Position numbers and translations under genes: made by a program
Shown here: positions 18 through 58,300 of the stretch, piece by piece
Numbering within the stretch: the stretch's first letter is position 1
Layout: each line of letters opens with the position of its first letter
Source of the DNA: Parelaphostrongylus tenuis
Taxonomy: Eukaryota; Nematoda; Chromadorea; Rhabditida; Metastrongylidae
NCBI GenBank assembly: GCA_019055375.1
Contig: JAHQIW010005280.1
Coordinates: forward strand, 372,001-436,000
Length of the DNA stretch: 64,000 nt
Reading direction: 5' to 3'
Notes under the pieces: generated by a model
Databases searched by the model: none
What the model saw: only the letters and a program-made list of their open reading frames with translations
Told to the model about the DNA's origin: nothing

Positions 18-345
18 CTCTCATCATTATTTGAGCCAACATGTCATGTGGTCTGGTAAGGGCTTTTGTACAGCCCGAGACACGTGTTGCCAATGAGCAA
101 TCGAGTGCACAACACTCTGTGTTAGGTGAATGATTCACTTGACATAGAGTGTAAAGCGTACGTCGTCGATAACTCCCTATAAAGGGTGTAAGGCTCCCGA
201 GAGAACTGACTATAAAAAGATCGACAGACGACGGGTTCTGCCCGGCTGATGAGTCTGTAAGGACGAAACACGTGTCTCGGGCTGTACAAGAGCCCTTACT
301 AGACCACATGACATGACAAGTTGGCTCAAATAATAATGAAAGGAG
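18..345. mobile_element. Hammerhead-bearing foldback element FB1
   Basis: Inverted-repeat element. The left arm starts with TTTGAGCCAACATGTCATG and the right arm ends with its complement, each followed or preceded by an AT-rich ATTATT flank. Inner arms carry GGGCTTTTGTACAGCCCGAG on the left and the complementary AGAGCCC/GGGCTGTACA block on the right. The centre contains a segment (CAATCGAGTG, ACATAGAGTGT) seen again in the copies near 30.6, 52.1 and 56.0 kb. The left arm has lost most of its ribozyme; the right arm keeps a complete one. Confidence 0.8.
240..282 (+). ncRNA. Hammerhead ribozyme, palindromic stem III (ACACGTGT class)
   Basis: All hammerhead elements are present in order. Stem I 5' strand GCCCGG (240-245), core CTGATGA (246-252), stem II GTC/GAC closing a TGTAAG loop (253-264), GAA (265-267), self-complementary ACACGTGT (268-275), cleavable C (276), stem I 3' strand TCGGGC (277-282). 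Stem I pairs fully with one G-U. Stem III has no loop, so within one molecule it would be weak; a dimer pairing the two palindromes would form a stable stem, as is known for hammerheads of Penelope-like elements. Cleavage is predicted after 276. Activity is inferred. Confidence 0.8.
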
Positions 346-436
346 CTATTAGTGACTATAGCTTTTTTTCTGATTTGGCTGGTACCACAAAATTTTCAAA
401 TAAGATTTTTTTTCTAATGTCACGATATCGTCTCCT

Positions 437-815
437 TCTTCAAAGCCGGAAGTTGTAGTCGATTGTCCACAATCGTTCGTCCTCGTCATGAACCTTCATC
501 TTTGCTGTCGTTCGAATTGAGTAGTTTGTTGTGGAGCAGAGCTCGAATGAAGAACCTCACTTGGCGATATATCAATTTGCGGACGGTTCGTATGCTAATC
601 ACCCGTTGATAGTGATTATACATACTTGTTTTCTTGGTACAATCAGTCCCATAGCATCCGGTCCTTCTTTCGAGCGGTGCTTCACAGAAGAGGGTTTGAC
701 TCGAACGACATCTGGGATGAAGGTCCACAACAAAGGCGAACGACTGTGGGCACCACTCGAATCATCGGCCTTGAGGAAGACAAAGGCAATGAGACGTTAG
801 TCGATTAAGTCAAAT
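437..815. repeat. Foldback repeat family F, hammerhead-like relic ends
   Basis: The left end contains CTTCTTCAAAGCCGG and a GTTCGTCCTCG block; the right end carries ATCGGCCTTGAGGAAGAC then GAGACGTTAGTCG, resembling on the opposite strand a decayed form of the Penelope-type hammerhead (GGCTCTGAAGAAGG...GAAACGTC). Related copies lie at 13.5, 42.6, 47.5 and 57.5 kb. No coding potential is supported; short ORFs here are incidental. Confidence 0.45.
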
Positions 816-941
816 TAATCTATTCCTTGTATCAGCCAAATCAAAGAAGAAGATATCATTGATTAGTAACGCCGAGTCCAAAGGAAAATCGGTTCTCAAG
901 AAACATCATTGACCACATTCAATGCCATTCCAGCTTCACAG

Positions 942-3900
942 CATACGCTTTTCGCCAACTTCGTCGGCTACCGACGATAAGAGTAAAGATCGACAAGGAA
1001 TTAGGTGAAGCCAAGAACGAGATACTTGAGATCGTTCACAAGCATGATACTGACAGAGTTTTTGTTTCGGGTACGTCTCATTCGACTTAACGATGTAGTT
1101 GTTTCTATGATTTTTTATCATCCAGATATACCGGACCAAGGTTTATCAACTGATTTGGTGCTCGAACTAGCGAGCAGATATGAATCATACGGCAAATTTG
1201 ATATCGCCGAAGGTCGGGTTGTCGGGCGCAGTCTACACAGATCAATCCCCTGAACATCTTGGATTACTTACGAAGGTTTGTGGAAGTGTATGAATGGATT
1301 TCCTACTAATCTACAGAAATGCTACTGGTTCTTTTCTGTTATCTGGCGACAAATGAATAAGCGACCCCCTATTGCTGAAGAAAGGCTCTACATAAGAGTC
1401 GTAGTAACCATTCAAAAGCTCAAATCTTTAGCTATTGCATCAAAAGGCTTAAATCTTCAGCTACTGCACTACGTGCTCATTTTTTGCAAGGATCTTTTTA
1501 TATTGTGGGGCGGGGGTCACTGACGAGGAGCACGAGCCTCCGAAACACCGGTGTATGGCCCTGGCGTACCAACCTCGTTTTAGGCTAAAAACATTCTTTT
1601 TTTTTTGGATTTGATTTTGAATGTTTATAACGAGGTTTTAAAAACAGTCGATTCAATGGATTAATTTTGATCTTTTTATAAATCCGTAGCATTCATTCAG
1701 GATAAAATCATGTATTACACCGGCCGCACACTCTAACTGTTACTTCGTTGGAAGCATGGGAAGCACATAAGCGTGTAGTAGAAATTGTGTAGTATCAGAG
1801 TCATACGGTTGGTCAGGAATTTGTTTCGAAGCGGAGAAAATTTCTCGAATCAAATAACAAGAATTACACTTACCGATCGATATGTAGAGTTGACGACTAA
1901 CATCCTCCAATCGCTTCCCTTTCCCTGCCCACGGCCAGCCACGCACAAGCCGAAAGACAATGCCCGCGTATGTGTGACTCAGTCTTATTCTTCTTGCTAC
2001 TTTGTAGTGAAACTGTATTTCAAGAAGATAAGCACAGCGTTGAAATCACCGGAACTTAAGTTATCGAATGGTTACTCATAAGTCGAGGAAAGAACTGTGT
2101 AGTGGAGTCATGTGGCGCATGTGGAACACGAGTGTTTTCTTTTTGTTACAGCGTTATAAAAAAATTTTTTTTAAAACGGCCACGTAGCACAAATAGCCAG
2201 AGAATTGAGCTTTCGAATAAGTACTAAAAGTGCAATGGAAAATCTTTGTCCATCGAAGGGGATCGCTTCAAAGAACCACTCTTATTTCATCGCGATTATA
2301 GCAGTGTTACGTTTTGGTAAACATATTTTGAAGGATGGTGAGTGATAAACAAAGCTTTAATATATAAGCCGGAGTTGAACCTACGTTTCGTCCCAGAGCG
2401 ACCTGTTAGTTTATATGGTTATGTCGACATGAGTGCGTGTGGCGCAGTATTTGGAGTAGCTCAGCGATACTCATCTGGTTGATCAGTCGATGGTCGATGG
2501 TTCAATCTCGGCTCAAAGCTCATTAAGCCTTTCATCCCTCAGGTATCGTCGAACTGATACCAAGCTTTTTCGGGGACGATAGCAGCACTCATTTTATATG
2601 TCGGGAGGCCAACGTCGTTTTCAAAGCCAGATATGAATTCAGTCAGCTCAAACAGTGTTAGATGAAGATGAATGCATGACGCATCCCTCAGGAATCGATC
2701 TCACCGTCGAAGCTGTATGCTGTAAATTTATGATGTCGACATGTGCTTATCAGATAACAATTGTTGAGAATCGGTTGCTGACGCCTTCGACGCTTTATGT
2801 AGAAGATAGAGTGGTAGCAGAGCGGTAGTTCTGGTAGTGTAGTGGTAGCATGCCCGCGATATGGGTGAAACGTGGGTTCAACTACCGCCTGAGGCCGGAA
2901 GTTTTGTGTATCACACAGCATCTTTAGGCATGTACAATTTTGGTCTTTAAGGCCTTCTAAAAGTTTACTTTCATTCTAGGTGTATAGCAAATACGCCTAC
3001 TCAAATCCACTGCATCCAGATGTGTTTCCTGGAGTTCGTAAGATGGAAGCAGAGACGATTCGCATGGTGCTTAATCTCTACAATGCACCTCCTGAAAGTT
3101 CAGGAAGTTTAACCACAGGCGGAACGGAATCTATAATTCTGGCTTGTTTGGCCTACAGAAATCGGTCAGCCTTACAATGGCAATTCTCATGGAAATAATT
3201 TCTTATAGATCTACTACATATGTTGCCGATTTCTTTGTAGGGCACTTCAGATGGGTATTGATAGACCGGTAATAGTCTGTGCTACAACTGCTCACGCTGC
3301 ATTTGACAAGGTAGGTCAAGTTGTAGGATATGTATATTACTGGGTAAAAACCCCTTTAGTTGTTGCTTTCTAGAATTTTCCATGAACTTAGGCTGCGTTT
3401 CTTATGTGGTATGCGTATTCGGCATATACCTGTTGATTCAAACAACCGAGTGGATTTGCGGCTGATGGAAAAAGCGATTGGTTCCGAAGTTTGTATGGTG
3501 AGTAGAAAATCCTTATCGTTGGGAATTAGTGTGACAAAAAGCTTACTATCGAATATGGCGAATAGTCATAACCGTATATCCAAGGATGCTGTAGTATACA
3601 AGACTTTCGACCCCAGGTGGGGCCTGCTTGAACCCGCGTATCATTGGTGAACCTTGGACACGGGGTCGAACCATTGACGACTAGTCGCAAGGCAGCTTTC
3701 ATTATTGCGCCACATGCACTGTTACAGCAAAATGCATCTTGTAATGTTGTTTGATGAACTGATTAGCTTCAAGGCATGTTCAACATACGCAATATGAGGT
3801 ATTTACCAACATCTTGTAGATGTTTTTGATCGAGTAGTCTAAGCTTTTCCCTATGGGTCTTAATTCATCATTGCTGCTAGTTCCTACATGCCAGTCTGAT

Positions 3901-12305: not shown

Positions 12306-12678
12306 GTAGTACTCTGCCTTTGTAAACATATTGAGCCAGGACAAACTCAATAGTAACCTGATGAAAAATTATGAAATTGCGAAGATGTTGTAGGAGAAGT
12401 TTACCAAATTCACCAGAAGAGTATTATGACGTGCCTTTATTCCAATATTTATTGTAGTTATAGATAGTCAACTTGTTTCGCCTTCCAAATATTTTCTCAG
12501 GTTGAGTTGTTGGTCTATGGATTCTAGCGCATCTTGCGTCGAAAATTGTATAATGTCTCTCAAAAAAGACAGAACTCTCGATCTTTGAAGCAGCACATAT
12601 TTCAGTATTGTGCATGTCTCCTATTGCAAACTTATCTTGATTAGCTGACGCGAGGTTGGTAAACTAGTCGTAGCAATT

Positions 12679-12715
12679 CGCCTGACGTTTCGGCGACCCG
12701 CCTTCTTCAGAGCTT
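12679..12715 (-). ncRNA. Penelope-type hammerhead motif
   Basis: Minus strand: core CTGAAGA, one A, stem II GGCG/CGCC around GGT, GAA, palindrome ACGT, cleavable C at 12684. The first two stem I pairs form; further pairs do not, so stem I is weaker than in the 49.1 kb copy. Confidence 0.6.
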
Positions 12716-13082
12716 GGGCGTATGTAGCAATAGTTTATTTAGATGATTCGGAGGATCTTATTTATATGCTACCTAGATCAGGTTAAAATATTAAACAAAG
12801 AAAGGGCGCGAGATCTCGTGTGATGGTGACGCATTCGCCCTTCCGGTTCATTTCGGTGTTTTTGGCGTTTATTCAAATTGCCTCAAGAGTTTTGCGAGTG
12901 GATGTTTTTGATCCCTGCGGCATTTCGGTTTAACGCCGAAAACCCCGAAATGAAACGGAACGGCGCATGCGTCACCATCAAACGAAATCTCGCGCCCTTT
13001 CTTCGCTTGATCTTTCAACCTGACCTAGGCAGCATATAAATAAGATCCTCCGAATCATTCAAATAGACTAATACTACATACG

Positions 13083-13122
13083 CTCAAGCTCTGAAGAAGG
13101 CGGGCCGCCGAAACGTCAGTCG
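13083..13122 (+). ncRNA. Penelope-type hammerhead motif
   Basis: Core CTGAAGA (13091-13097), stem II GGCG/CGCC around GGC, GAA (13110-13112), ACGT (13113-13116), cleavable C (13117). Stem I forms GCT/AGT with one G-U. Mirror partner of the motif at 12679. Confidence 0.6.
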
Positions 13123-13285
13123 AATTGCTACGACTAGTTTACCAACCTCGCGTCAGCTAATCAACATAAGTTTTCTCGAATTTTATATATCAATTAATTA
13201 TGCTGAGGTTTATAGAATGTCGAACTTTTGAATTGTTGCGATATCTTCTATTGCAGTCATGTTGGTATTACGGTGATGAATCAGT

Positions 13286-15420: not shown

Positions 15421-17471
15421 TTGCACCACTTTACATCATTGGGTTTATTGTAACACCTTAGAAACGTCATTGAATATTTCGTTGTCCCCAAAGATTCGAA
15501 AGTGCATTTTCTAAATCCCCACGGCTCTTATTTGGTACTGAAATTATACCAGGCTGGGCCAAAGTCATTCGATTTCACCTGATTACTGCATTTGTAAACG
15601 TGAACGAAGAACTACTCTTTACTCCTTGTTCTTAAGCATGAACTACATTTTGTAGATTGCGTATGTTGTAATGACACACCTTGATTACCAGGCAGATCGA
15701 CTTTGAGCTAGTCCAAACTGAAGTAAACGTATTCGATAAATAGTGTCTGATTGGAGGAAACTTAATCGAAGTTGAAGCGTTTGCTGGCAATTGGTACCAC
15801 ATTCTAAACTTAGATTTGACGCTCCGTCATCAGTAAGTTTGCATACAACTCTCATCGTTCTAAAATCAGTGTGCCGCAAAATCATGCTAAAATGACAAAC
15901 AAGCGAATGAAATATGTGCTGTGATTGTATGATGATCGTTAAAACCTGGAGCCTTTCTATCTCTATAGAGATCTCATCTAATAGAGATGCGATCGTTAGT
16001 TTCAGTTGCTATACTGCTCTGTGATGCAGTTCCCAAGCTCTAGGAGCAATTCATCATCTTCGTATCTCTTATCAGTGGCGAACTATTAATTGATTTTGGG
16101 GTAAGAAGTATTTTTGATATATCATTGGGTCACTAAAAATTTTTCTTCGAGATCTTTTGAGTTCGTGATTTCGGTCTATAAGGCGTACACTGATTTAGTG
16201 CGATGTGTATTCCAGAAGTAAAGCAATTCTGACCTGTGCCAGAATAACTTCTAAATCTATGCAAATTGACACACAGACAGAGCTGTTTAGACTGCTAAAC
16301 TCACAATCCAACGAGACAAAACAACACAGGGTGCTGAGCATGACAATTCAGTTCAAAGGCCTCTAGTTGATTGCTGATGTCTATAATTGCTTCCTTGACA
16401 ACATAAGCTACGGTGCCTCAAGAACTTCCCCTGCACGTTCATAATGCTGCCCGAATTATTACTGAGCCTAGATTTCACAATCCTAGCAATTATCTACCTA
16501 TACGACGGGTAATTTTTTAATCGCTGCACATTCCACAGCGTCTGATGCACTCTCAATGTCGCAATGAAATCAATGTTTATATAGCAGCTAGATCACTGAA
16601 GATCCAGTGAACTGGTTTTTTGACATAAACATTCTATTCATCGGCCTATATCCCTACTAATAGCAGCGGTGAACGCAAATGGATCAGTCCAGACAAAGTG
16701 AAATATCATTTGATGTTGCGGTCTAGACTTATTCTAAGTCGATGCCTAACGCGACTTTTACGAAGCATGTAAGACTACCTTTCAATCGATTATGTTCTAA
16801 ACCTCTTTCAAAAATTCCGATAGAGTGTGACAGAAGGTTTGAAGCCTTTCTCTGAGCATCTAAGCCACTAGCGTATCAAATCTTGAAGAGGCTCAAAATA
16901 TCCCTTTAGACTATATCGGAACTTCGAGCGAGGTTTCAAACAAAATTGACTGAATGGTAGTGTTACAGTCTGGAACTATTTCAATGTGCACCCCCTGAGA
17001 GACAATTTACATGCATTTATAATCGTTACAAACTCTTGCAGAGATCGCAATTCACAGTCTTAATGTGCAAGAAGAATACACCCAAGACAAGAAGAAAAGA
17101 ATATTCCATGTATCCAAGTCACTGGGCGGGGTGGGGGAAGGGGCAAGAATATACACGTAGTTTATGGATACTCCGAATGCTGGGCCATTTCTTCAGCAAG
17201 AACAAATGGATTTCATGCACAATTTTCAGTACAATAAGTGTTCACTTCGATCAATTTTTCAACAGTGTTAAGAGATGTGAGTTGATAGTTCCCTGTAACA
17301 TTCTCGTTGAATTGGCCAACGTACCCATTTGAATGAATTTATATGATGCAGCGACAACAGCATTAGCCAACTCATTGTAACAACGTCTTAGGAATTGTCA
17401 CACAGGACTTCCCAGATTGCTGAAGAGTGAACCACAAACTTAATTACACCTCTACGTAATCCTTTAATTAT

Positions 17472-17580
17472 CATTTGAGCCAACTTGTCATGTGGTCTGG
17501 TAAGGGCTCTTGTACAGCCCGATACACGTGTTTCGTCCTTACAGACTCGTCAGTCGGGCAGAATCCGTCGTCAGAGTGAC
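17472..17580. mobile_element. Hammerhead foldback element FB2, left half
   Basis: Carries TTTGAGCCAACTTGTCATG and the GGGCTCTTGTACA block followed by an intact minus-strand hammerhead, then stops abruptly at TGACGCTCCCGAGAGACC, where spacer sequence of the tRNA array begins. The right half is missing, so the array boundary coincides with the element. Confidence 0.75.
17517..17559 (-). ncRNA. Hammerhead ribozyme (ACACGTGT class)
   Basis: Minus strand: stem I GCCCGA/TCGGGC, six Watson-Crick pairs; core CTGACGA; stem II GTC/GAC with TGTAAG loop; GAA; palindrome ACACGTGT; cleavable A. All invariant bases are intact. Confidence 0.8.
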
Positions 17581-17706: not shown

Positions 17707-17778
17707 GGGGCTATAGCTCAGTGGTAGAGCGCTCCCTTAGCATGGGAGAGGGCTGGGGTTCAATTCCCCATAGCTCCA
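17707..17778 (+). tRNA. tRNA-Ala(AGC) copy 1
   Basis: 72 nt; acceptor GGGGCTA/TAGCTCC, D-loop AGTGGTA, anticodon loop TTAGCAT, T-loop TTCAATT. Followed by TTTT, a Pol III terminator. Confidence 0.93.
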
Positions 17779-17906
17779 CGAACTTTTGCAGACCGACGAG
17801 TACTTTCAAACTAATCATGATAAACGTGACAGATATCGCGACATTTGAGCGAACGAGAATGAAATAAATGAAAGCTTCGGCCAATCCACAACCTATGTGA
17901 TCCGTA

Positions 17907-17980
17907 GGGGCTATAGCTCAGAGTGGTAGAGCGCTCCCTTAGCATGGGAGAGGGCTGGGGTTCAATTCCCCATAGCTCCA
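17907..17980 (+). tRNA. tRNA-Ala(AGC) copy 2
   Basis: 74 nt with the longer D-loop AGAGTGGTA; otherwise as copy 1. TTTT follows. Confidence 0.92.
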
Positions 17981-18108
17981 TGAACTTTTGCAAATCATCG
18001 AGCATTATCAAACTAATCATAATAAACGCGATAGATATCGCGACAATTGAGCAGACGAGAATGGAATAAATATAAGCTTCGGTCAATCCACAACCTATGT
18101 GATCCGTA

Positions 18109-18182
18109 GGGGCTATAGCTCAGAGTGGTAGAGCGCTCCCTTAGCATGGGAGAGGGCTGGGGTTCAATTCCCCATAGCTCCA
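18109..18182 (+). tRNA. tRNA-Ala(AGC) copy 3
   Basis: 74 nt, D-loop AGAGTGGTA; TTTT follows. Confidence 0.92.
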
Positions 18183-18310
18183 TGAACTTTTGCAAATCAT
18201 CGAGCATTATCAAACTAATCATAATAAACGCGATAGATATCGCGACAATTGAGCAGACGAGAATGGAATAAACGTAAGCTTCGGTCAAACCACAACTTAT
18301 GTGATCCGTA

Positions 18311-18382
18311 GGGGCTATAGCTCAGTGGTAGAGCGCTCCCTTAGCATGGGAGAGGGCTGGGGTTCAATTCCCCATAGCTCCA
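18311..18382 (+). tRNA. tRNA-Ala(AGC) copy 4
   Basis: 72 nt, D-loop AGTGGTA; TTTT follows. Confidence 0.92.
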
Positions 18383-18510
18383 TGAACTTTTGCAAACCGA
18401 CGAGTACTTTCAAACTAATCATGATAAACGTGACAGATATCGCGACATTTGAGCGAACGAGAATGAAATAAATGAAAGCTTCGGCCAATCCACAACCTAT
18501 GTGATCCGTA

Positions 18511-18582
18511 GGGGCTAGAGCTCAGTGGTAGAGCGCTACCTTAGCATGGGAGAGGGCTGGGGTTCAACTCCCCATAGCTCCA
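18511..18582 (+). tRNA. tRNA-Ala(AGC) copy 5, mutated
   Basis: Position 8 T to G (GGGGCTAGAGC) and a mismatch in the anticodon stem (CTACC against GGGAG); T-loop TTCAACT. Possibly a pseudogene. Confidence 0.75.
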
Positions 18583-18710
18583 TGAACTTTTGCAAACCGT
18601 CGAGCATTATCAAACTAATCATGATAAACGTGATAGATATCGCGACATTTGAGCGAACGAGAATGAAATAAATGAAAGCTTCGGCCAATCCACAACCTAT
18701 GTGATCTGTA

Positions 18711-18782
18711 GGGGCTATAGCTCAGTGGTAGAGCGCTCCCTTAGCATGGGAGAGGGCTGGGGTTCAATTCCCCATAGCTCCA
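18711..18782 (+). tRNA. tRNA-Ala(AGC) copy 6
   Basis: 72 nt, D-loop AGTGGTA; TTTT follows; next spacer is the short type. Confidence 0.92.
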
Positions 18783-18855
18783 TGAACTTTTGCAAATCAT
18801 CGAGCATTATCAAACTAATCATGATAAACGCGATAGATATCGCGAGTGACCCGTA

Positions 18856-18927
18856 GGGGCTATAGCTCAGTGGTAGAGCGCTCCCTTAGCATGGGAGAGG
18901 GCTGGGGTTCAATTCCCCATAGCTCCA
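18856..18927 (+). tRNA. tRNA-Ala(AGC) copy 7, no TTTT
   Basis: 72 nt, consensus body. The downstream terminator is changed from CTTTTGC to CATTTGC, so no T4 run lies close by. Confidence 0.9.
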
Positions 18928-19055
18928 TGAACATTTGCAAACCGTCGAGCATTATCAAACTAATCATAATAAACGCGATAGATATCGCGACATTTGAGCG
19001 AACGAGAATGAAATAAATGAAAGCTTCGGTCAATCCACAACCTATGTGATCCGTA

Positions 19056-19129
19056 GGGGCTATAGCTCAAAGTGGTAGAGCGCTCCCTTAGCATGAGAGA
19101 GGGCTGGGGTTCAATTCCCCATAGCTCCA
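19056..19129 (+). tRNA. tRNA-Ala(AGC) copy 8
   Basis: 74 nt, D-loop AAAGTGGTA; anticodon stem GAGAG gives one mismatch. TTTT follows. Confidence 0.85.
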
Positions 19130-19257
19130 TGAACTTTTGCAAATCATCGAGCATTATCAAACTAATCATAATAAACGCGATAGATATCGCGACATTTGAG
19201 CGAACGAGAATGAAATAAATGAAAGCTTCGGTCAATCCACAACCTATGTGATCCGTA

Positions 19258-19331
19258 GGGGCTATAGCTCAAAGTGGTAGAGCGCTCCCTTAGCATGGGA
19301 GAGGGCTGGGGTTCAATTCCCCATAGCTCCA
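19258..19331 (+). tRNA. tRNA-Ala(AGC) copy 9
   Basis: 74 nt, D-loop AAAGTGGTA; TTTT follows. Confidence 0.92.
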
Positions 19332-19459
19332 TGAACTTTTGCAAATCATCGAGCATTATCAAACTAATCATAATAAACGCGACAGATATCGCGACATTTG
19401 AGCGAACGAGAATGAAATAAATGAAAGCTTCGGTCAATCCACAACCTATGTGATCCGTA

Positions 19460-19533
19460 GGGGCTATAGCTCAAAGTGGTAGAGCGCTCCCTTAGCATGG
19501 GAGAGGGCTGGGGTTCAATTCCCCATAGCTCCA
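19460..19533 (+). tRNA. tRNA-Ala(AGC) copy 10, no proximal TTTT
   Basis: 74 nt, D-loop AAAGTGGTA. CATTTGC replaces the terminator, but the spacer has TTTTT just before copy 11. Confidence 0.9.
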
Positions 19534-19660
19534 TGAACATTTGCAAACCGTCGAGCATTATCAAACTAATCATAATAAACGCGATAGATATCGCGACAAT
19601 TGAGCAGACGAGAATGGAATAAACGTAAGCTTCGGTCAAACCACAACTTTTTGATCCGTA

Positions 19661-19732
19661 GGGGCTATAGCTCAGTGGTAGAGCGCTCCCTTAGCATGGG
19701 AGAGGGCTGGGGTTCAATTCCCCATAGCTCCA
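19661..19732 (+). tRNA. tRNA-Ala(AGC) copy 11
   Basis: 72 nt, D-loop AGTGGTA; preceded by ACAACTTTTTGATCC; TTTT follows. Confidence 0.92.
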
Positions 19733-19860
19733 TGAACTTTTGCAAACCGTCGAGCATTATCAAACTAATCATGATAAACGTGATAGATATCGCGACATTT
19801 GAGCGAACGAGAATGAAATAAATGAAAGCTTCGGCCAATCCACAACCTATGTGATCTGTA

Positions 19861-19932
19861 GGGGCTATAGCTCAGTGGTAGAGCGCTCCCTTAGCATGGG
19901 AGAGGGCTGGGGTTCAATTCCCCATAGCTCCA
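19861..19932 (+). tRNA. tRNA-Ala(AGC) copy 12
   Basis: 72 nt, D-loop AGTGGTA; TTTT follows. Confidence 0.92.
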
Positions 19933-20060
19933 TGAACTTTTGCAAATCATCGAGCATTATCAAACTAATCATAATAAACGCGATAGATATCGCGACATTT
20001 GAGCGAACGAGAATGAAATAAATGAAAGCTTCGGTCAATCCACAACCTATGTGATCCGTA

Positions 20061-20134: not shown

Positions 20135-20262
20135 TGAACTTTTGCAAATCATCGAGCATTATCAAACTAATCATAATAAACGCGACAGATATCGCGACAT
20201 TTGAGCGAACGAGAATGAAATAAATGAAAGCTTCGGTCAATCCACAACCTATGTGATCCGTA

Positions 20263-43330: not shown

Positions 43331-44235
43331 ATCTCCTAAACAGTCCCCAAACTCACTAATAGCAATCCTAGAGACAGAACAAAACGAAAGGTCCGCTGCA
43401 TTCTAGGAACACATCTTCAAAACACAGCGACCTACGTATACTGATTTCAACACATCCAAGCCCTGGAATGATTGCTACTTTTCAGCTTTTTATAGACATC
43501 CCAGCTCACAGTGGAACTGATTAGGCTAAACAGAAGCCAATGAAATCTGGAGATCTTGAGTAACAAAGCAGACGCAATCTTTTCGCAGATTTCCTTCTTT
43601 ATGAAAGGAAAAGAAGGAAGGATTGATTCTCGTCAACGGGTGATTATTTTAGGCGGGCAAGTTGGGAACTCTATAACCATATAAATGAGACTTTGCCCTA
43701 TCGCCATAGCGGCTACATGAATTATCTTGGATAATCGGTACTTGTCTGTTATAAGGCGACAAATGAGGATTCAACCTCTTTTGCTGGACAAGAACTTTTC
43801 ACAAGAGTGTTAGTAATCATTCAAAACCTCAAACCTCTGGCTGCTGCGCTACGTGCTTTTTTTTTCAGAAAACCCCATTACAACGCTGTAGAACAGTCTT
43901 TGAATTTTTAGATTATGTATTCATGGATTTCTCAAACATCCCAAAAGGAAGTCTAAATTTTCAAATTTAACTCGTGTATGCGCCAAGTACAAAAAACAGT
44001 GATAAACTGTATAGTGCAATCGTGGCCCACTAAATGGAATTTCTCTTACTTGACTACTTTTACTATGAAAAATATCTTGGCTCAAAAAACTGGAAGAAGT
44101 TTCGGTGGTTGTACAAAACCACAATTTCTTCGCGTCAAAAGAGGACGTGTATACTTTGATAGAAAATATGTAAACTCTAACAGTCTCCTGTTGTAATAAA
44201 TACTTTATATCTATTCCCCTTCATTTTAGTAAAGA

Positions 44236-44515
44236 GCGCACGGGGCGCAGTGGTTAGAGGTGTTCTGCGTCACACACATAGTCGACATTTCGATCCCGTG
44301 CTCAAGGCTTACCAAGCCTCCCATCCCTCCGTGGTCAGTGAACTGTTGGTAGACTTGTCTTGGAGGATAAGCAGCACCGATTTGATGCATCGGTCCGCCA
44401 CCACGAGTCATTGTACAGGCTAAACATGTACTTAAGCACCTAGAACGAAGCTAAAAACTGAAGAAATATGCATGGCGCCTTCATGGATTGATCAAGGTTA
44501 AGAACTTTATCCTTC
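44236..44515 (+). repeat. tRNA-derived SINE, family A
   Basis: Head GGGGCGCAGTGGTTAGAGG with TTTCGATCCCGTGCTC, body ATCCCTCCGTGGTCAGTG, GGAGGATAAGCAGCACCG, tail ATGCATGGCGCCTTCATGG. Diverged. Confidence 0.7.
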
Positions 44516-49156: not shown

Positions 49157-49191
49157 GGCTGACGTTTCGGCGACCCGCCTTCTTCAGAGCC
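49157..49191 (-). ncRNA. Penelope hammerhead ribozyme, best copy
   Basis: Minus strand: stem I GGCT/AGCC (four pairs), core CTGAAGA, one A, stem II GGCG/CGCC with GGT loop, GAA, palindrome ACGT, cleavable C at 49161. The A between core and stem II is unusual; the very short palindromic stem III suggests action as a dimer, as described for Penelope-like elements. Confidence 0.75.
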
Positions 49192-49258: not shown

Positions 49259-50755
49259 TTAGAAGATCAAACGAAGAAAGGGCGCGAGATCTCGCGTGAT
49301 GGTGACGCACTCGTCCTTCCGATTCATTTCGGGGTTTTGGGCGTTTATCCAAAATGCCTCAAGAGTCTTGCGCGTGGACGTTTTTGATTCCTGCGCCAGG
49401 ATTGTGACAGTCACATCAAAATCCTTGTTGTTGTGTTTTTGTGCCCTATGTAAACCTAAAGGTTTGGTTTTATCTATTTTAGATTTACTGTCTAGATGTT
49501 CTTTTATGCGGACGAAAAGTGGTCTTCCCGTTTCGCCTATATATTCTTCCCCGCATGTTTTACATGTTAGCAAATAAATTGTGCCTGATCTCATACAATC
49601 TCCCTCTTTTCCGTTGGGGCAGATCATACAGTTGTTGGTGTTGCACAATCGATCATAGAGTCTATTGCGGATCAGCTGATGGCGTAGGGTGGGAGGTGGG
49701 GTTTCGATAATTACCACGGAATTTTCAAGACCGCATCTTTTCAGGCACCTTTTAACCGCGCTACTAATCTCGTTTGATATAAATGGTAATTTGAAGGGGA
49801 CTCTATTCAGGTGCGGAGTATTGTTCTTTTGTGACCTAATTCCACTTTTTGAATATTCCCTAGTGGCAAATGTTTTGTAGCCGTTGGAAATGGCGATCTT
49901 TCGTGCCAAGTCTAATGATTCGTTCCTTTCCTCCTCTCCTGTGCACACACTTTTAGCTGTTCGAAACATGTTTTTAATTAGCGATTTTTTCATGTGTGAA
50001 GGATGAGAGGAGAGGTAATTGACCAAAATGTTCTTGTTACTTGGTTTTCGATACCACTTTGTACTATAGCCACTATCCAAAAGCTTTACTTGGGTATTTA
50101 GGAATGGAAGCCAGCCCCCGTTTGGACTTTCTCGCGTAAATCTGATATGCTCTGACTGTCCGTTCAACACTTCAAAACATTTGTCCATTTCCTCTTGTGT
50201 GGAACAGACAATGAAACAGTCATCTATATATCGGCAGTAGAGCAATGGGCGGTGAACGAGAATTGGAGCTTCCACCTTATACATAAAAGCGATGGCAAGA
50301 CTAGGTGCTAAGCGTTGACCCATGGCTAACCCCCTGAGTTGTGTAAAGTATTTTCCCGACCACCGAAAGATTGAACAACTAAGACATTGTTTTAGGAGGG
50401 TCATTAGTTGTTGAATTGTGAAGCCATACATGTTTACTTTTTGTTCATTTTCAGTTAAAAGTTCGAAAATGGCTTGCATTGCAGAGTCATTTGATACGTT
50501 TGTATAGAGTGAGCTAACATCAAATGACTCCATTACGTGCGAGTTGTTAGGTTTCGCGCAACGTAGGTGGTCAAGGAACATTTTTGTATTGGGTAGGTGG
50601 GTTGGTATGAATTTGAGCACCTGAGTAAAAATGAGGTTTAGAAACCACGTTATTCTATCCGTTGGTCCGCCTATACAACTGATGATGGGTCTAACCTTGT
50701 ATGTTGATGGATCGGTTGACACTAGATCATCAATAGATGTAAGTTTATGTGTTTT
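49259..50755 (-). CDS. Penelope-like RT with GIY-YIG endonuclease (partial)
   Basis: 487 codons from the annotated GTG, open slightly further upstream. RT motifs in order: VRPIISCIGGPT, SFDVSSLYTNV, QLRGLAMGQRLAPSLA and the catalytic YIDD (about 50225). The C-terminal third has a Cys-rich NNCMICPNGK segment, then GIY-YIG: TIYLLTCKTC, EEYIGETGRP, RIKEHL (about 49490-49600). Ends LAPFLRLIF. Such proteins nick the target and copy their RNA at the nick. The frame is intact over the remaining length, so the insertion may be young; the missing N-terminus makes it inactive. Confidence 0.92.
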   Translation of the reverse strand, partial: KTHKLTSIDDLVSTDPSTYKVRPIISCIGGPTDRITWFLNLIFTQVLKFIPTHLPNTKMFLDHLRCAKPNNSHVMESFDVSSLYTNVSNDSAMQAIFELLTENEQKVNMYGFTIQQLMTLLKQCLSCSIFRWSGKYFTQLRGLAMGQRLAPSLAIAFMYKVEAPILVHRPLLYCRYIDDCFIVCSTQEEMDKCFEVLNGQSEHIRFTRESPNGGWLPFLNTQVKLLDSGYSTKWYRKPSNKNILVNYLSSHPSHMKKSLIKNMFRTAKSVCTGEEERNESLDLARKIAISNGYKTFATREYSKSGIRSQKNNTPHLNRVPFKLPFISNEISSAVKRCLKRCGLENSVVIIETPPPTLRHQLIRNRLYDRLCNTNNCMICPNGKEGDCMRSGTIYLLTCKTCGEEYIGETGRPLFVRIKEHLDSKSKIDKTKPLGLHRAQKHNNKDFDVTVTILAQESKTSTRKTLEAFWINAQNPEMNRKDECVTITRDLAPFLRLIF

Positions 50756-50999
50756 TCACGAGAAGGTATAGGACCGGACAAATAGGATTATTGTTTTTGA
50801 GTCGAGAAATAACTGAAGTTTCCAAACCCGCTGCACTTGCCGTGTTGACCCCATTCTTTGTTTAATTTTTTACATTGGAGTTTATATTCCTTCTCAGAGG
50901 ATGGGCGATAGAGGGAGACATTTTTTCTTCATTTTTTTCCTAGAATTTTGAGTGGAAACTCGCATGGAGATTTATTGCTAATGTCTTCCAACAAAGAGC

Positions 51000-51290
51000 G
51001 CATGTGGCGCAGTGAGTTAGAGGTGCTCTGCGCTCGCACACGAGGTTAATGGTTCGATCTCGCCCTCATGGCCCACCAAGCCAGCGCTCACAAACCATCA
51101 TCCCTCCGGGTCGGTAAATTGGTACCAAGCTTGTCTGGGAGGATAAGCAGCACTGACTCGGTTCAGCGGGAGGCCACCGCGAGTCATTGTAAAGGCCAGA
51201 TGTGCATTCAATCACCTCTGACGAAGTTAGAATCTGAAGACGAATGCATGGCGCATCCCTCAGGGATTGATCAACGCCGAGAGCTTTTTA
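51000..51290 (+). repeat. tRNA-derived SINE, family A, full length
   Basis: Head CATGTGGCGCAGTGAGTTAG with TGGTTCGATCTCGCCCTCAT, body CATCCCTCCGGGTCGG, GGTACCAAGCTTGTCTGGG, GACTCGGTTCAGCGGGAGG, tail GCGCATCCCTCAGGGATTG. Confidence 0.85.
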
Positions 51291-51346
51291 GTCTTCTATC
51301 GTTTAACCTCGGCGTTTTCCGTTCTACAAATTTGAGTGTGGCGAAA

Positions 51347-51597
51347 TATTTCAAGCCTTTCAAGTGGTCTGGTATGGCAGTTCTAGTGCTAGACATCGAT
51401 TCTTAGACTCTTGCAAGCCTCATCAGCAACATATCGCTTGACGTGAAATGATACATCATCGGCGACGATTCCTCGTCAATAATAAGGGACGATCAGCCGA
51501 ATGGCATGTGCTACTGATGAGGCCTGCGAAAAGACCGAAATGTCCTGATAGCACTAGGAGTGTCACACCGCACTTTCGTGAAAGGCTCGAAACTTTC
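51347..51597. mobile_element. Foldback element FB9 with hammerhead
   Basis: Arms TTTCAAGCCTTTCAAGTGG and GTGAAAGGCTCGAAAC. Left arm has a decayed minus-strand hammerhead (GTTGCTGATGAGGCTTGC), right arm a better plus-strand one. Same family as 40597 and 61641. Confidence 0.65.
51508..51554 (+). ncRNA. Hammerhead-like motif, GTGCTA class
   Basis: Stem I GTGCTA/TAGCAC perfect (51508-51513 with 51549-51554), core CTGATGA (51514-51520), stem II GG.CT/AG.CC, GAAA (51537-51540), then TGTCCTGA. The 3' side before stem I is longer than expected and no proper palindrome is present, so activity is doubtful. Confidence 0.5.
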
Positions 51598-51904: not shown

Positions 51905-52375
51905 GAAATATCTTTATTTCGAGTGTTTTAGTTAAAATCACGCTCAAATTCCAATAGATCCTTTCATTATTATTTGAGCCAACTTGTCATGTGGTCTGGT
52001 AAGGGCTCTTGTACAGCTCCGATACACGTGTTTCGTCCTTACAGACTCGTCAGTCGGGCAGAACCCGTCGTCTTTCGATCTTTTTATAGTCAGTTCTCTC
52101 GGGAGCCCTACTCTCCATACAGAGAGTTATCGAAGACGAACGTTCTACACTCTATGTCAAGTGAAATTTTCACCTAACACTCGTGTGTTGTACACTTACA
52201 CGTATCGTCTTCGACAATCTCTCTAGGTAGAGCAGGGCTCTCGAGAGAATTGACTATAATAAGATCGAAAGACGACGGGTTTTGCCCGACGTGTCTGTAA
52301 GGGCGACACGTGTATCAGGCTGTACAAGAGCCCTTACCAGACCACATGACAAGTTGGCTCAAATAATAGTGACAG
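51905..52375. mobile_element. Hammerhead foldback element FB5
   Basis: Shows the outer end TCTTTATTTCGAGTGTTTTA, then TTTGAGCCAACTTGTCATG and the mirrored right arm CAAGTTGGCTCAAATAATAG. The left hammerhead is complete; the right one (52283-52330) has lost the core (GCCCGACGTGTC). The centre carries CATAGAGTG-type sequence as in FB1 and FB6. Confidence 0.8.
52016..52059 (-). ncRNA. Hammerhead ribozyme (ACACGTGT class)
   Basis: Minus strand: GCCCGA, CTGACGA, GTC/GAC around TGTAAG, GAA, ACACGTGT, A, TCGGAGC. Identical to the copy at 17517 except for an extra base in the 3' strand of stem I. Confidence 0.75.
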
Positions 52376-52749
52376 CGATCTCGAATAGTAGATTGGAAGG
52401 TAATTCCAAATCTTTTTTCCAACTATCAAGAAAAATTTGGGAAAACACCGCTCGTATTATATTGAGAGAATCGCTCGCCTTATCATGATTCCCGCATAGC
52501 CTTATGTATTATCTTCGTGTTTCTTTTGGCCAACCGTTTCAACTTAACGTGACACTATGTAAGAGCAGATCTTTCCCCTTTGAATGCTGCTAATCAAAAA
52601 GGCGAATCACCTCTAAGCTCTAATTGTATCACTTGGATACAGCTCGGAAGAGGACCATTTATTCTGGACAATGGGCGCCATTATACTTCTTCTCTGAGTA
52701 TCTTCTAGTAGATATCGTGGACTTAGTTAAGAGGTTGTGTAAAAAGTTC

Positions 52750-53845: not shown

Positions 53846-54144
53846 TCGGATGTTTTGCATAGAACACAGTGCTTCTAAATGTACTCCTAGCATCATATCG
53901 CTGCTGGAAAGCAGTAGAAGTAGTCATACTTGACGTCTTTTCCATATCATTTATCTACTAATGGTATGGGAACAGTGACTCGCTCTTTCTTGAAAAGACT
54001 CGCCAAACTTTTGTTTATCAAGAATACGTCTAGTTCAGTGGAAGAGGTATTACGAGTCTGGAATGCAACTGTAAAGTGTATTTGGGATCGTTTCCGTTGA
54101 GGCTGGGATTTTTGAAGGGACCTCTTTTGCTTTTTGAAGGGATC

Positions 54145-54385
54145 TCGCGCTCATGGCTCACCAAGCAATCCCCTCCGGGGTCGGTAAATTGGTACCGGGC
54201 AGGTCTGACTTGTCTGGGAGGATAAGCAGCACTGACTCGGTTCAGCGGAGGCCCCCGCGAGTCATTGTAAAGGCTAGATGTGCATTCAATCACCTCAAAC
54301 GGAGTTAAAAATTGAAGTCGAATGCATGGCGCATCCCTCAGGGATTGATCAACGCCGAGAGCTTTATCCTTTATCCTTTATCCTC
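54145..54385 (+). repeat. tRNA-derived SINE, family A, headless
   Basis: Begins at GATCTCGCGCTCATGGCTC; body GGTACCGGGCAGG, GGTTCAGCGGAGGCCC, tail GCGCATCCCTCAGGGATTG and TCCTTTATCC repeats. Followed by family D half-sites to about 54650 (AGTAATCATTCGAAAGC). Confidence 0.8.
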
Positions 54386-55364
54386 TTTTGCTTGATAAAG
54401 GTTTTTCATCAGACTTTAAGTAATCATTCGAAAGCTTCAATCTCGGAGGATTCAAAAATGTACCTTTTTTTCTTAAGAAGGCTTTCTTACAGCTTTGCAC
54501 GTTTGGAATGAAATTGTGCTTCGCATGCGTCGCGCGTTATCGCGGAATTTTTTGTTACTCATTTGGAACTATTCCTCCGCTTCATAAAGCTTTCTAGGTT
54601 TTCTGTAATCAACCTATTGGGGAAAGCTTTCTCTATTGTTCTAGCGCTTAAGATTTTCATTTTCATTATATATTGCCATTATATCTGCTACTAAGTTCAA
54701 GCTTAAGCCTAAGCAGCCTAAGATTAAACACGGAAATCATATGAACGTGTAGGGGAAATCTGCAAAAATTAGAATGTTATGTTTGATCTAGCCTACTTAT
54801 CAAAACGGTGAAATATCCTAAATTCAATGACAAAAATCGCACTCCGTTTATGAATCGCGCCTACGTAGTTCATGGATCGACGCTTGTGAGAGTCAGTCTC
54901 ATTTTCCTGCTGCAGTGCAGTAAAATGGTCTTTCCAGAAATAAACATAGTGGTGGAATCAGCGAATTTTGCGCTACCGAATGTTCACTAGTAGTTTAAGG
55001 GAGGAGACCTCTCATGTGAGATAAAACACCATAGACGCAACGCGTGTGAAACAGAATTTTATTTTGAATGATACAGCGCTGTGAGAAGACATTTTCAAGA
55101 GAAAAGTGTACTTCTTATTTCTCTGAGATTTAGGCCTTCGATTGAGTACCAAAAATCTGTTGTAAAGTCTTTGACCGGCGAAAAATCCTCATTCAAAAAT
55201 CTCTGCCCCATAATGGAAATGATCCGTATTTGCATAACGATGACATCAGTATTGCTTTGGAACCATGTAAATTTGTCATCCATTCATTCATTTCTACTTG
55301 TTCGATTCTATATGTTGTCATTTAGATAATATCATGTTCTTTGATTGAAATTTTAGAATTTCAG

Positions 55365-58300
55365 ATGGGTGTGGTCATCCCTCTCGTGGCGGTGACTGCA
55401 TTTTGGCTACTCATCGGCATTGGGGGTCCGTTTCTTGTTCCCAAAGGACCCAACAGGGGTGAGTTGTTGTGTATTCATTTGCTAAGAAGATTTTAAAGGA
55501 CTCATATTTCCTTCGGTAATGATTGAAGTTTACTCTCTTGCTATAAAATCTGTCTAAATGTCCAATTGTGTTGAGCAATTTGCAAAAAGTTGAACCTCGG
55601 TAAGGAGTTGAAGCCGCGTATCACCCTTTTTGGGGGACGTATGCTAATCACTGCACTTTTGGGGCTGCTGTTCTGCTACCATTCTTTCTACGATACAAGA
55701 TATCGATTCTGATAGCAATATGCCTGATAATCATTTCTTGAGCCACGCATTTCACTGGTCTGTCAATGAGGGCTGACTTATAGAGCCCGATACACGTGTT
55801 TCGATCTTGCGATCTCGTCAGTCGGGCAGTTACCCTTTCTCGTCTTTTGCTGATCTCTGTGGGTGCTCCAGTCCCCACACTAAGAGTTAGCGACGACGAA
55901 CGCTTTACACTCTATATCCAGTGACAAACTCACCGAACACAGAGAGAGAAAACACTCGAAACGTAAGATATGATATATTGAATATACCAGCCAAGAGCAA
56001 TCGAGTGTACAACACTCTATGTTTGGCGATACATAGACTGGACATAGAGTGTAAAACGTTCGTCGTCGCTAACTCTTAGTGTGGGGACTGGAGCACCCAC
56101 AGAGATTAGCAAAAGACGAGAAAGGGTGACTGCCCGACTAACGAGATCGCAAGATCGAAACACGTGTATCGGGCTCTATAAGTCAGCCCTCCTTGACAGA
56201 CCACTGACATGCGTGGCTCAAGAAATGATTATCAGACATATTGAAATTTGAGCTGTTGACTTAAGAAAACACTCGAATCGAAGGATATGTTATCTGGTAG
56301 CAAAAGTTATAAGACTGTATATTACTAAAAACTGGTTGAATAAAGAATTTTTGTCAATTTCATGATTACATGTTCTGCTTTTAGGAATCATCCAGACTAT
56401 GATAATCATGACTGCCGTCTGCTGCCATCTTTTCTGGATCCTGGTTTGTGCTTTAACGCATTGACGACCATAAACCTACGGCGTTAGCACCGTCCCATTG
56501 CGCGCGCGGCGGCGAGCAGTTCGCAGTCACGATGCCCGTGCTGGCGTTGATCGGGAAGAGCGTTGCTAGTTCGATCGCCTAACACGACGTTTCACTGTGG
56601 TTTCTCCGGTGTTATCCCCCTTTTTCCCGTACAATATGCTCAGATGACTGGCACACCATTTCACGCCATGTTTTGTATAGTAAATTTGTAAAATAAGTTG
56701 GATACACGTTGTTACCCTATAATCTATGTCTCGTATCAAAGAGTAGTGAAATTCTAGGCAACTGAGCGTTTTTTTTTTTGCTGTAACGATTGCCTTATAG
56801 AAGGTTTTCCAATGTTAAGCGACATCACAATATAACACCATTGAAACTACAGTGAAGCGTCGTGTTAGAGGACCGAACCAGTAAATTTCTTCTCGAGCGA
56901 GGCCAGCGCGAGGTACCGTCTCGTGGGCTCCTCGCTGCCGAGTCGACGGGCGGGGCTAGCGTCGTGTGTCAACGATTTCTCACGGGGTTTAGTTTTTTCT
57001 TTGTTCGGCACAGGTTTCTTATAACTTGTTAAAAAGAACTTCTTTGCTAGTCGATATGGGTTATGATATGCGCAAGTTCATCTGTTATTGACGAATGTTT
57101 ATTAATATCAATGTGTTTGACGTGATAGAGCTTTGAATATATATCACAGAATTTCTTGCACAATATTATAAATACTTGTTAGCAGAAAAGGTTAGGTAAG
57201 CCTACAGATTTTGACTTTGACGGCTTTAGAAGGTTAAAGTGAACCCAACATAGTTTTTACTTGAGTGGTTGGTATCAAATTCTTTGTTTGCGCAATATAT
57301 TACTTTCCATTGAATATCGAAAATACTGTTTTAGGAAGGGCACGTGAGCGCACAGGCTAGAGATACCCTGGGACACACCACACATTATCAATGATTCGAT
57401 CTCACGCTCAAGGCTCACCAATCCTTCCATCTCTCGGAGTCGGCGGATTGCGTTTCGATGTCATTGTCTTCTTTATTGTCAGTGATTAGAGTCGATTTTC
57501 CCCAGTCGTTTGTCTTCGTTGTGGGTCTTCGTGTTCGTTGTCGTCCGAGTCCAATCTTCTTTGGTGGAACACCTTTCATCATTGCTATTCAGTCGGATAG
57601 GGTAGCTATTATCGGGAAGAACATCTGGGAGTCTTTAACAGAAACAACTATGCAAAATGAGCTGTCACTAGAGGAATTGCATTTCCAGTTTGCACAGGAT
57701 TTAGTAACTTGATTGTTGGTTAGAGTTTCTTTCAAAAACATTACAAAGGACAAACTCAAATAAATGCTTCTAATTGGTACTTTTATAATATAGAATATAA
57801 CATGATGTAGTGACACCTATCATTACCAGTGCTTAATTTTCTCCTTAAAACTTTCTTGCATAAGCTTTTCCAACGGATAAGTCATCCTTTTATAGTAAAA
57901 TGTTATCAGTTTTGAGGGCCTGTTGTCGAGTGGCTAGTGATTCTCGAGGTGGGGTTGATCCCCCAACACTCTGCGGTAGTGAATAACTTATCTCCAGCGG
58001 AACGCTTCAGCCTGGTTATTTACGAAATCGCATGATCCACTCAACCAGTGTTCTACAACGTTCAATCAAGTAATGAACGCGAGGAGACGAATTGAATGAT
58101 AGAAGTGCTGGGACCCTCACAGTTGAAAAAACTGCAATAGAGTCAATCAATGATATCAATAATAAAATTTATTGTTTGTCTAAGTCAACTTTGCTAACAC
58201 TAAGCAGGATCATAGATGTTGAGTCCAAATCGCAGTGAACATTACCATTATTTCAGATATATTTGCACCAACTCAATCCTCTCATTGGTCCTCAAATCAA

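Follow-up and report, generated by a model that had tools for sequence, protein, structure and literature searches.

Head-to-head foldback elements with type I hammerhead motifs in a nematode genome and their possible mobilisation by Penelope-like elements

Hammerheads in Penelope-like elements and retrozymes

Penelope-like elements (PLEs) are described as inserting in the form of inverted head-to-head pseudo-LTRs, one of which may carry a tail (PMC3846280, PMC8969392), and hammerhead ribozymes are known inside these pseudo-LTRs (PMC11167929). PAc, the protein of a lizard PLE whose RNA contains a hammerhead, is reported to extend both target strands in vitro, with two internal start sites explaining the tail (PMC11167929). 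For the PLE examined in vitro, hammerhead mutants left insertion unaffected (PMC11167929), so mobility does not necessarily require the ribozyme. In bdelloid rotifers, head-to-head inverted repeats of Penelope elements with palindromes at the junction have been read as products of self-priming (PMC3846280). A second group of hammerhead carriers, the metazoan non-LTR retrozymes of coral, mussel and axolotl, consists of tandem repeats of non-coding units of 170-400 nt, with less than 50% GC and a type I hammerhead whose stem III is weak in some (PMC7229834). According to a review, animal retrozyme repeats hold no conserved motif that betrays their helper (PMC7761336). PLEs are regarded as a strong candidate for that role on the grounds of shared type I hammerheads, tandem copies and co-occurrence, and the link is so far just hypothesised in the literature consulted (PMC7229834). 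Among the titles and abstract openings listed in searches of open-licence papers, none names a foldback retrozyme or a strongylid hammerhead element.

The 64-kb window analysed here (the whole stretch of DNA) holds six related elements, FB1 to FB6, nine arms of which contain motifs of type I hammerheads. An initial annotation had claimed a family with common arm sequences and hammerheads, laid out as inverted repeats with outward-facing ribozymes; both claims are borne out, with related sequences found at six loci. FB1 (E1) is a foldback at ~1-350 whose left arm, to ~88-100, crosses the window edge; only its right arm (~104-350) has a hammerhead core, at 240-282(+), as part of a hammerhead at 227-302(+) that has an extended stem I and a predicted cleavage site after 276. 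FB2 (E17) is a solo arm at 17459-17572(-), with an intact hammerhead at 17517-17559 predicted to cleave after 17523. The foldback FB3 (E24, related sequence ~24196-24526, foldback 24199-24526) combines a long left arm on the minus strand, with a hammerhead at 24218-24260(-), and a short right arm (~24457-24526) that is a stub of end and tail without a hammerhead core. The remaining three foldbacks have hammerheads in both arms: FB4 (E30, 30342-30937) at 30371-30447(-), with a broken core, and 30776-30851(+), with its core at 30789-30831(+) and a tail on the right arm; FB5 (E52, 51908-52381) at 51996-52072(-), whose core is at 52017-52059(-) and whose stem I has one inserted base, and 52271-52340(+), with a broken core, the tail being on the left arm; and FB6 (E56, related sequence ~55712-56292, foldback 55719-56292) at 55763-55842(-), with its core at 55785-55827(-), and 56115-56194(+), with a broken core and a tail on the right arm. 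The conserved CUGANGA and GAAA core is thus intact in six of the nine arms and broken in three (30-kb left, 52-kb right and 56-kb right), so that no foldback of the three with two hammerheads has both cores intact. A joint action of the two opposite hammerheads as a viroid-like pair was weighed and set aside, as each strand has only one sense hammerhead and one core is broken in E30, E52 and E56.

Further hammerhead foldbacks lie outside this set. A diverged one of FB type, E61 (61658-61950), has hammerhead-like sequences at 61658-61729(-) and 61879-61950(+); it was excluded from model building and then found by the model (R1 E 9e-6 and 0.02). A second family is represented by a solo arm at 1501-1660(+), with a hammerhead at 1514-1561, stem III ACACCGGTGT and a tail, and by the foldback E63 (62807-63182), with a hammerhead at 62870-62918(-), a decayed one at ~63044-63100(+) and a tail on the right arm only. 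More distant is the foldback E51 (51386-51554), with a degenerate hammerhead-like pair at 51386-51432(-) and 51508-51554(+).

Hammerhead detection, covariation and folding

The sequences support hammerheads of type I with a palindromic stem III, for which self-cleavage is predicted. The Rfam covariance model Hammerhead_1 (RF00163) recovers them unevenly: among the nine arms the gathering score of 34 bits is reached at 240-282 only (34.9 bits), the arms at 17517-17559 (31.6 bits) and 52017-52059 (27.2 bits) fall below the cut-off, and the remaining six give no match at E<=5. A structured scan for the core, a paired stem II, a palindromic stem III and at least 5/6 of stem I found five matches, three in the FB family and two in the second family, against none in 60 dinucleotide shuffles, and chance hammerheads were rejected on this ground; the bare CTGAYGA motif is just mildly enriched (28 occurrences, 18.2 expected). 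Contigs of prokaryote genomes and of viruses, scanned for the pattern, contained no match.

Across the nine arms, 86.4% of cells are paired and nine cells are changed on both sides, and none of 500 shuffles reached either this number or the covariation score. Only three pairs have a change on both sides, which is not unusual (103 of 500 shuffles), and the count of pair types is likewise unremarkable (408 of 500). The covariation lies mostly in stem II and implies selection as RNA; the proposed selection on the RNA fold at source elements is supported as ancestral selection. The description of the stems itself needed correction. Stem II is not always paired, since a C-C mismatch in 24218-24260 leaves one cell of a pair unpaired; the change in stem I from GCCCGG to GCCCGA against TCGGGC exists and is one-sided, from G-U to A-U; and stem III reads ACACGTTT in the copy at 24 kb and ACACATGT in the right arm of E30.

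An extended stem I with a 6-nt bulge takes the form GGGTTCT/AGAGCCC in the E1 and E52 type and GGGTGACT/AGTCAGCCC in the E56 type. In free folds, stems I and II form in four of the nine arms (E17, the left arm of E52 and both arms of E56) and other structures are preferred in the other five monomers; the outcome for the right arm of E1 and for E17 varies with the stretch folded. Unconstrained co-folds gave the full double hammerhead, with a stem III of 8 or 10 bp, for two of seven sequences (the left arm of E56 and 62854-62931) and no clean double hammerhead for five. Folded as a circle, the unit in the right arm of E56 reaches -90.3 kcal/mol against -67.0 +/- 4.9 in 100 shuffles, with hammerhead stems I and II formed, and that in the right arm of E30 folds no better than shuffles (z -1.2), its optimum lacking the hammerhead. 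The palindromic stem III region recalls the type I hammerheads of amphibian repeats, which have a one-pair helix III with a palindromic tetraloop and are described as cleaving better as dimers (PMC7229834); in the FB monomer, in contrast, stem III consists of two base pairs and ACGT, and host and unit differ.

Repeat unit, outer ends and the Penelope-like element of the window

Two units could be measured, of 317 nt (43.8% GC) in the right arm of E56 and 331 nt (48.9% GC) in that of E30, with longest ATG open reading frames of 34 and 82 aa; having no long frame, they encode neither a reverse transcriptase nor a GIY-YIG endonuclease. The complete 317-nt unit occupies 55949-56265(+) and is followed from 56266 by ~25 nt of the next unit, which form the tail; the head of this arm agrees with its own tail at 26 of 30 bases, a likeness that none of 2000 shuffles reached. 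The unit junction is also crossed by the left arm of E24 and, more weakly, by the right arm of E30 (p 0.02). No full dimer or array occurs among the elements, and arms longer than one unit, as in these three, point to tandem or circular RNA. The elements resemble the metazoan non-LTR retrozymes (PMC7229834) in several respects: both have a type I hammerhead, a unit that codes for no protein and measures 170-400 nt at less than 50% GC, a stem III that is weak in some, and tandem register over more than one unit. Those retrozymes, however, are described as tandem repeats, whereas the FB elements are, at the level of DNA, head-to-head foldbacks with one-sided tails.

A tail is present on exactly one arm in six of the seven foldbacks with both outer ends readable (E52, E56, E30, E24, E63 and F12, a foldback introduced below); in E61 neither arm shows a clear tail, and E1 (at the window edge) and E51 (too degraded) were left out of the count. 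The short arms of E30 (left) and E61 (right) reach p ~0.05 against one tail. Outer ends sit at two distances behind the predicted cut, the shorter being 64-83 nt in the FB family, 69 nt in the second family and 56 nt in the PLE, and the longer 118-120, 97-105 and 78 nt, respectively; the left arm of E24 stops ~25 nt behind the cut, away from both of these positions. Convincing target duplications of 11-13 bp, each with one mismatch, flank two of six foldbacks tested: E24 (13 bp, 24186-24198 and 24527-24539; p ~0.004 for one element) and E56 (11 bp, 55708-55718 and 56293-56303; p ~0.012 for one element). That of E52 is weak (p 0.2), and none was found at E30, F12 or E63.

The window also contains a PLE, separate from the FB units, with an open reading frame for reverse transcriptase and GIY-YIG endonuclease at 49259-50755(-) (Pfam RVT_1 1.8e-12, GIY-YIG 6.6e-6) and a further coding match at 50754-50925. 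This copy is 5' truncated, a point counted against the reading preferred below. Among the best 120 of its 247 relatives, the named ones come from strongylid nematodes except for one from Caenorhabditis; together with a predicted protein of Parelaphostrongylus tenuis that reads through an antisense hammerhead arm, they support the nematode host that had been proposed. In the 3' flank of the frame lies a minimal hammerhead-like motif at 49157-49191(-), with ACGT as stem III, stem I GGCT/AGCC and predicted cleavage after 49161. Lunse, Weinberg and Breaker reportedly described in 2017 minimal PLE hammerheads with a very short stem III that are expected to act as dimers, a description that this motif fits; the FB family, by contrast, has a fuller stem III and an extended stem I. 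The 3' end of the same PLE family forms the foldback F12 (12628-13195), with a minimal motif in each arm (12684-12710(-) and 13091-13117(+); stem I decayed) and a tail on the right arm only.

The initial annotation had set the foldback layout apart from retrozymes and PLEs. In this form the claim is not supported, since head-to-head pseudo-LTRs with an optional tail, and hammerheads in them, are already described for PLEs and the window itself has a PLE frame and a foldback of a PLE 3' end. The FB elements share with PLEs the head-to-head inverted copies, the optional short one-sided extension and the target duplications in some copies (PMC3846280, PMC8969392), as well as a hammerhead placed shortly upstream of the point where reverse transcription starts or, in the FB elements, would start (PMC11167929). 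They differ in encoding no reverse transcriptase or endonuclease, in the lack of any match between their unit and the window's PLE, and in a longer hammerhead with a stem I bulge and an 8-nt palindromic stem III. The W-elements of Schistosoma mansoni, which have functional hammerheads, are likewise repeats found in a parasitic worm, and both inverted repeats and target duplications are mentioned for part of them; they differ in being satellite-like, and in the description available their inverted repeats flank predicted miRNA and snoRNA parts and no PLE-type foldback is reported (PMC8490949).

Possible routes of mobilisation

We favour, at a probability of roughly 57%, the reading that the FB elements are non-autonomous retroelements of the animal-retrozyme type, moved by PLE machinery with both target ends priming. 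It draws on the hammerhead folds, the covariation, the unit length and the arms longer than a unit, and likewise on the two end positions, the one-sided tails, the two target duplications and the PLE foldback with the same end pattern. Counted against it are the small share of foldbacks with a convincing target duplication, the arms of E61, the outer end of the left arm of E24, the circle fold of E30, the mixed outcome of the monomer folds and co-folds, and the lack of a match between the unit and the window's PLE. A unit of 317-331 nt without a long protein gene would be transcribed, and its type I hammerhead would probably cut as a dimer through the palindromic stem III; tandem transcripts, or circles from cut monomers, could then serve as template for the PLE reverse transcriptase-endonuclease. 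That enzyme would make a staggered target cut, and reverse transcription would be primed by both target ends, each using either of two sites that lie, according to family, ~56-83 and 78-120 nt behind the hammerhead cut. The two cDNAs would join head to head at the centre, with 5' truncation there to a variable extent. The product would be a foldback whose hammerheads face outward, with a single tailed arm and a short duplication of the target.

A retrozyme-like RNA and a PLE enzyme could also yield foldbacks by self-priming, in which the strand folds on a palindrome and is copied onward, as proposed for the bdelloid rotifer elements. The arms of E56, 96% alike over 207 nt, look as expected if one template was copied twice; a tree of ten arms resolved no other pair. 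Under self-priming, however, the two arms should be identical when formed and should match at their outer ends; six of the seven readable foldbacks differ in their tail, and the arms of E30, though both have a GGC/GCC stem II, are 75% alike and no closer to each other than to the left arm of E52 (76 and 78%). We consider this route unlikely. Still less probable is that the elements, instead of forming a separate non-autonomous retrozyme family, are what remains, after divergence, of the pseudo-LTRs of autonomous PLEs that had longer hammerheads: they resemble the PLE in end pattern, in tail and in where the hammerhead lies, and the second family and E51 suggest several such families in the window, but the complete unit closes on itself without a long frame, and none of the six elements adjoins PLE coding sequence in a tblastn search with a PLE relative (E<=1e-3).

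About equally improbable is a cut-and-paste DNA transposon (a MITE or Foldback element) whose long terminal inverted repeats include a hammerhead by coincidence. The long inverted arms, the two short target duplications and the lack of a long coding frame would suit it, and among 17 inverted-repeat pairs that were checked, out of 48 in all and 25 listed, 10 have no hammerhead, indicating that foldbacks in the window arise for other reasons too, which also weighs against the reading we prefer. One of these contains a mariner-type fragment; Pfam searches of nine other open reading frames gave one mariner-type HTH fragment, one marginal methyltransferase and nothing for seven. Terminal inverted repeats of a DNA transposon should be symmetrical, yet the outer ends are unequal in six of seven foldbacks, and on this ground we rejected it as the main reading. 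Arms that continue in tandem register beyond a single unit, the variable centre, the solo arm, the same foldback anatomy at a PLE 3' end and a covariation that implies RNA selection also speak against it.

Extending the retrozyme reading to animals at large is more tentative, and we place it somewhat short of even odds: animal retrozymes would be mobilised by PLEs, with priming from each of the two target ends and at two fixed distances behind the cut, and ribozyme and start site would form a conserved module; the foldbacks of this nematode would then be the mark of integration that identifies the enzyme. On the reading we prefer, PLE insertion leaves a structural fingerprint in the form of a foldback whose tail is one-sided. 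If this pattern recurs genome-wide, the question of what moves retrozymes would become answerable from sequence alone, and the two-strand extension reported for a PLE enzyme in vitro (PMC11167929) would gain a genomic counterpart.

Hammerhead arms and their RNA structure

The six inverted-repeat elements of the initial annotation, here named by kilobase position (E1, E17, E24, E30, E52 and E56, with L and R for left and right arm), are present in the window and mutually related. Hammerheads, or what is left of them, occur in nine of their arms, the CTGANGA and GAAA core being intact in six (E1R, E17, E24L, E30R, E52L and E56L) and broken in three (E30L, E52R and E56R); the copies are old and decayed. 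Their proposed identity as hammerhead ribozymes was borne out in part by the Rfam type I model, which passed its cut-off once in the window (240-282, 34.9 bits) and left two further arms below it (31.6 and 27.2 bits). A strict structural scan detected five motifs in the window, three from this family and two from a second one, versus none in 60 dinucleotide shuffles. The broken arms at 30371-30447 and 56115-56194, each of which lies opposite an arm with an intact core, share an identical core change and read CTAACGA in place of CTGACGA. At 30735-30756, the E30 right arm contains a run of 22 C.

A covariance model built from these arms, whose E-values are rough, matched two stretches outside its training set, 61658-61729(-) (E 9e-6) and 61879-61950(+) (E 0.02). 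These are the two arms of another foldback, E61, and they align with each other at a score of 64, the shuffle maximum being 27. On the left arm of E1 (53-121) the model scored 22.6 bits (E 7.7e-5), covering stem III and the downstream part only. The second family, with stem III ACACCGGTGT, comprises a solo arm at 1501-1660 (E1500) and a foldback at 62807-63182 (E63), and a degenerate hammerhead-like pair (E51) lies at 51386-51554. Recurrence outside the window is suggested by a single Parelaphostrongylus tenuis predicted protein, which agrees at 32 of 39 residues with a hammerhead arm read in antisense.

Covariation had been put forward as a sign of selection on RNA structure, and comparison of the nine-arm alignment with 500 shuffles supported this, though not on every count. 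The expected structure gives 86.4% standard pairs, with nine cells changed on both sides and a score reached by 0 of 500 shuffles, but the counts of pairs with both-side change (three; 103/500 shuffles) and of pair types (ten; 408/500) are ordinary. Shifting the partner by 1-3 columns lowers pairing to 27-48%, and the changes are located mainly in stem II. Stem I extends past the 43-nt core, with GGGTTCT opposite AGAGCCC in E1/E52-type arms and GGGTGACT opposite AGTCAGCCC in those of the E56 type, each pairing across a 6-nt bulge. Covariation in this extension was judged by eye; in the automatic alignment the two types occupy separate columns, and only 71.4% of the distal stem I cells are paired.

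Free monomer folds formed stems I and II in four of nine cases. The stem III palindrome is predicted to allow two pairs and a four-base loop within one molecule, and eight pairs between two. Unconstrained co-folds yielded a full double hammerhead for two of seven sequences, E56L and the arm 62854-62931 of the second family, and none for E52L, E1R, E17, E1500 or the motif of the Penelope-like element (PLE).

The Penelope-like element and neighbouring repeats

Two domains were recognised in the PLE open reading frame (49259-50755, minus strand), a reverse transcriptase at 1.8e-12 and a GIY-YIG domain at 6.6e-6. This copy is truncated at its 5' end, and extra coding matches lie at 50754-50925. 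Its database relatives number 247 proteins; among the 120 listed, those with a named source belong to the strongylid nematodes Ancylostoma, Haemonchus, Necator, Nippostrongylus, Heligmosomoides and Angiostrongylus, apart from one Caenorhabditis, which makes a strongylid host very probable. A minimal, dimer-type hammerhead has been described in PLEs, and the motif GGCT-CTGAAGA-AGGCGGGTCGCC-GAA-ACGT-C-AGCC in the 3' flank fits it; this motif is absent from the Rfam search matches in the window. The inverted repeat at 12628-13195 (F12) is a foldback of the PLE 3' end, matching a PLE relative over its final 46 residues at 54% identity and carrying the minimal motif in both arms.

Other repeats also occur in the window. 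A tandem array of 30 Rfam tRNA matches occupies 17707-23405(+), spaced mostly about 145-200 bases apart; its best copies show AGC in the anticodon loop, and the solo arm E17 lies at its left edge. Two further tRNA matches, in opposite orientation, form a foldback without hammerhead at 35027-35376 (103-nt inverted repeat, 92% complementary), and a mariner-type HTH fragment (PF17906) at 25233-25958 lies inside a 213-nt inverted repeat, likewise without hammerhead. A dispersed repeat, SINE-like by eye, occurs at 50990-51310, 61979-62288, 54141-54385, 30042-30324, 32544-32744, 44231-44508, 2532-2700 and 62523-62672, and the A/T-rich tail of such copies seems to adjoin E30 left and E61 right.

Outer ends, units and target sites

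The direction of the hammerheads places the RNA 3' side at the two outer ends of every foldback. In six of the seven foldbacks with both outer ends readable, exactly one arm bears an extra outer stretch, or tail, and the other is shorter (tails on E52 left and on the right arms of E56, E30, E24, E63 and F12). The seventh, E61, has no clear tail in comparison with the tails of less diverged copies; E1, at the window edge, and E51, too degraded and with weak matches on both arms, were left out of the count. Compared with four tails, the short arms E30L and E61R each reached p about 0.05 with one of them. Had each arm carried a tail independently, at whatever frequency, the probability of exactly one tail in six or more of seven foldbacks would not exceed 0.063, or 0.016 for all of six.

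For the first family, end points fall 64-83 and 118-120 nt after the predicted cut; the second family has them at 69 and 97-105 nt and the PLE at 56 and 78 nt. The exception is E24 left, which ends about 25 nt past the cut. In a lizard PLE (PMC11167929), the hammerhead cut falls 26 nt inside the ORF and most starts of reverse transcription 111-118 nt inside it, by our subtraction ~85-92 nt behind the cut; the tail there is the stretch between two start sites.

The tail is the start of the next unit: 26 of 30 bases agree between the head of the E56 right arm and its own tail, E24 left crosses the unit junction, scoring 46 with the E56 head and 56 with the tail of its partner arm, and E30 right shows a weaker head-tail match (p 0.02). 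The template RNA was therefore longer than one unit, or circular. Units of 317 nt (E56) and 331 nt (E30) fall inside the 170-400 nt that PMC7229834 gives for animal retrozymes. In predicted circular folds, the E56 unit forms its hammerhead stems and exceeds 100 shuffles in stability (z -4.7); the E30 unit is no more stable than shuffles (z -1.2).

Target-site duplications were sought at six elements, with p values per single element from 3000 random flank pairs. Candidates flank E24 (AGAATGGAAATCT / AGAATAGAAATCT, p about 0.004) and E56 (TCTGATAGCAA / TCTGGTAGCAA, p about 0.012); at E52 the flanks match over 11 bases with two mismatches (p 0.2), and none was found at E30, F12 or E63. Cross-paired flanks of different elements scored at most 7.0, versus 10.5 for E24 and 8.5 for E56.

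Proposed insertion by the PLE machinery

The layout had been thought to stand apart from PLEs and retrozymes, a claim not supported in that form: PLEs with inverted pseudo-LTRs, with tails and with hammerheads are already published. That PLEs mobilise animal retrozymes has also been guessed before (PMC7229834, PMC7761336, PMC11722881 and PMC8969392); among the matches listed from the open-licence literature, none names a retrozyme-type unit arranged as a PLE-type foldback.

We favour non-autonomous, retrozyme-like units moved by the PLE machinery and primed from both target ends, at a probability of roughly 0.57. Hammerhead mutations in a PLE had no effect on insertion in vitro (PMC11167929), so mobility need not require the ribozyme. 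This result and the small number of clean co-folds slightly lower our confidence in that explanation, and slightly raise the still improbable reading of the arms as diverged pseudo-LTR remnants of autonomous PLE families, with no separate retrozyme family. Less remote, though unlikely, is that the same RNA and enzyme make the foldback by self-priming, as proposed for rotifer PLEs (PMC3846280). The near-identical arms of E56 are compatible with either self-priming or two starts, whereas the inequality of the outer ends speaks for two separate, independent starts. Priming from both target ends also has a parallel in vitro, where a PLE protein cut and extended both target strands, using identical start sites (PMC11167929). 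By this route, each target end would prime one cDNA, and the two cDNAs would join head to head, giving a foldback with just the anatomy seen in the window.
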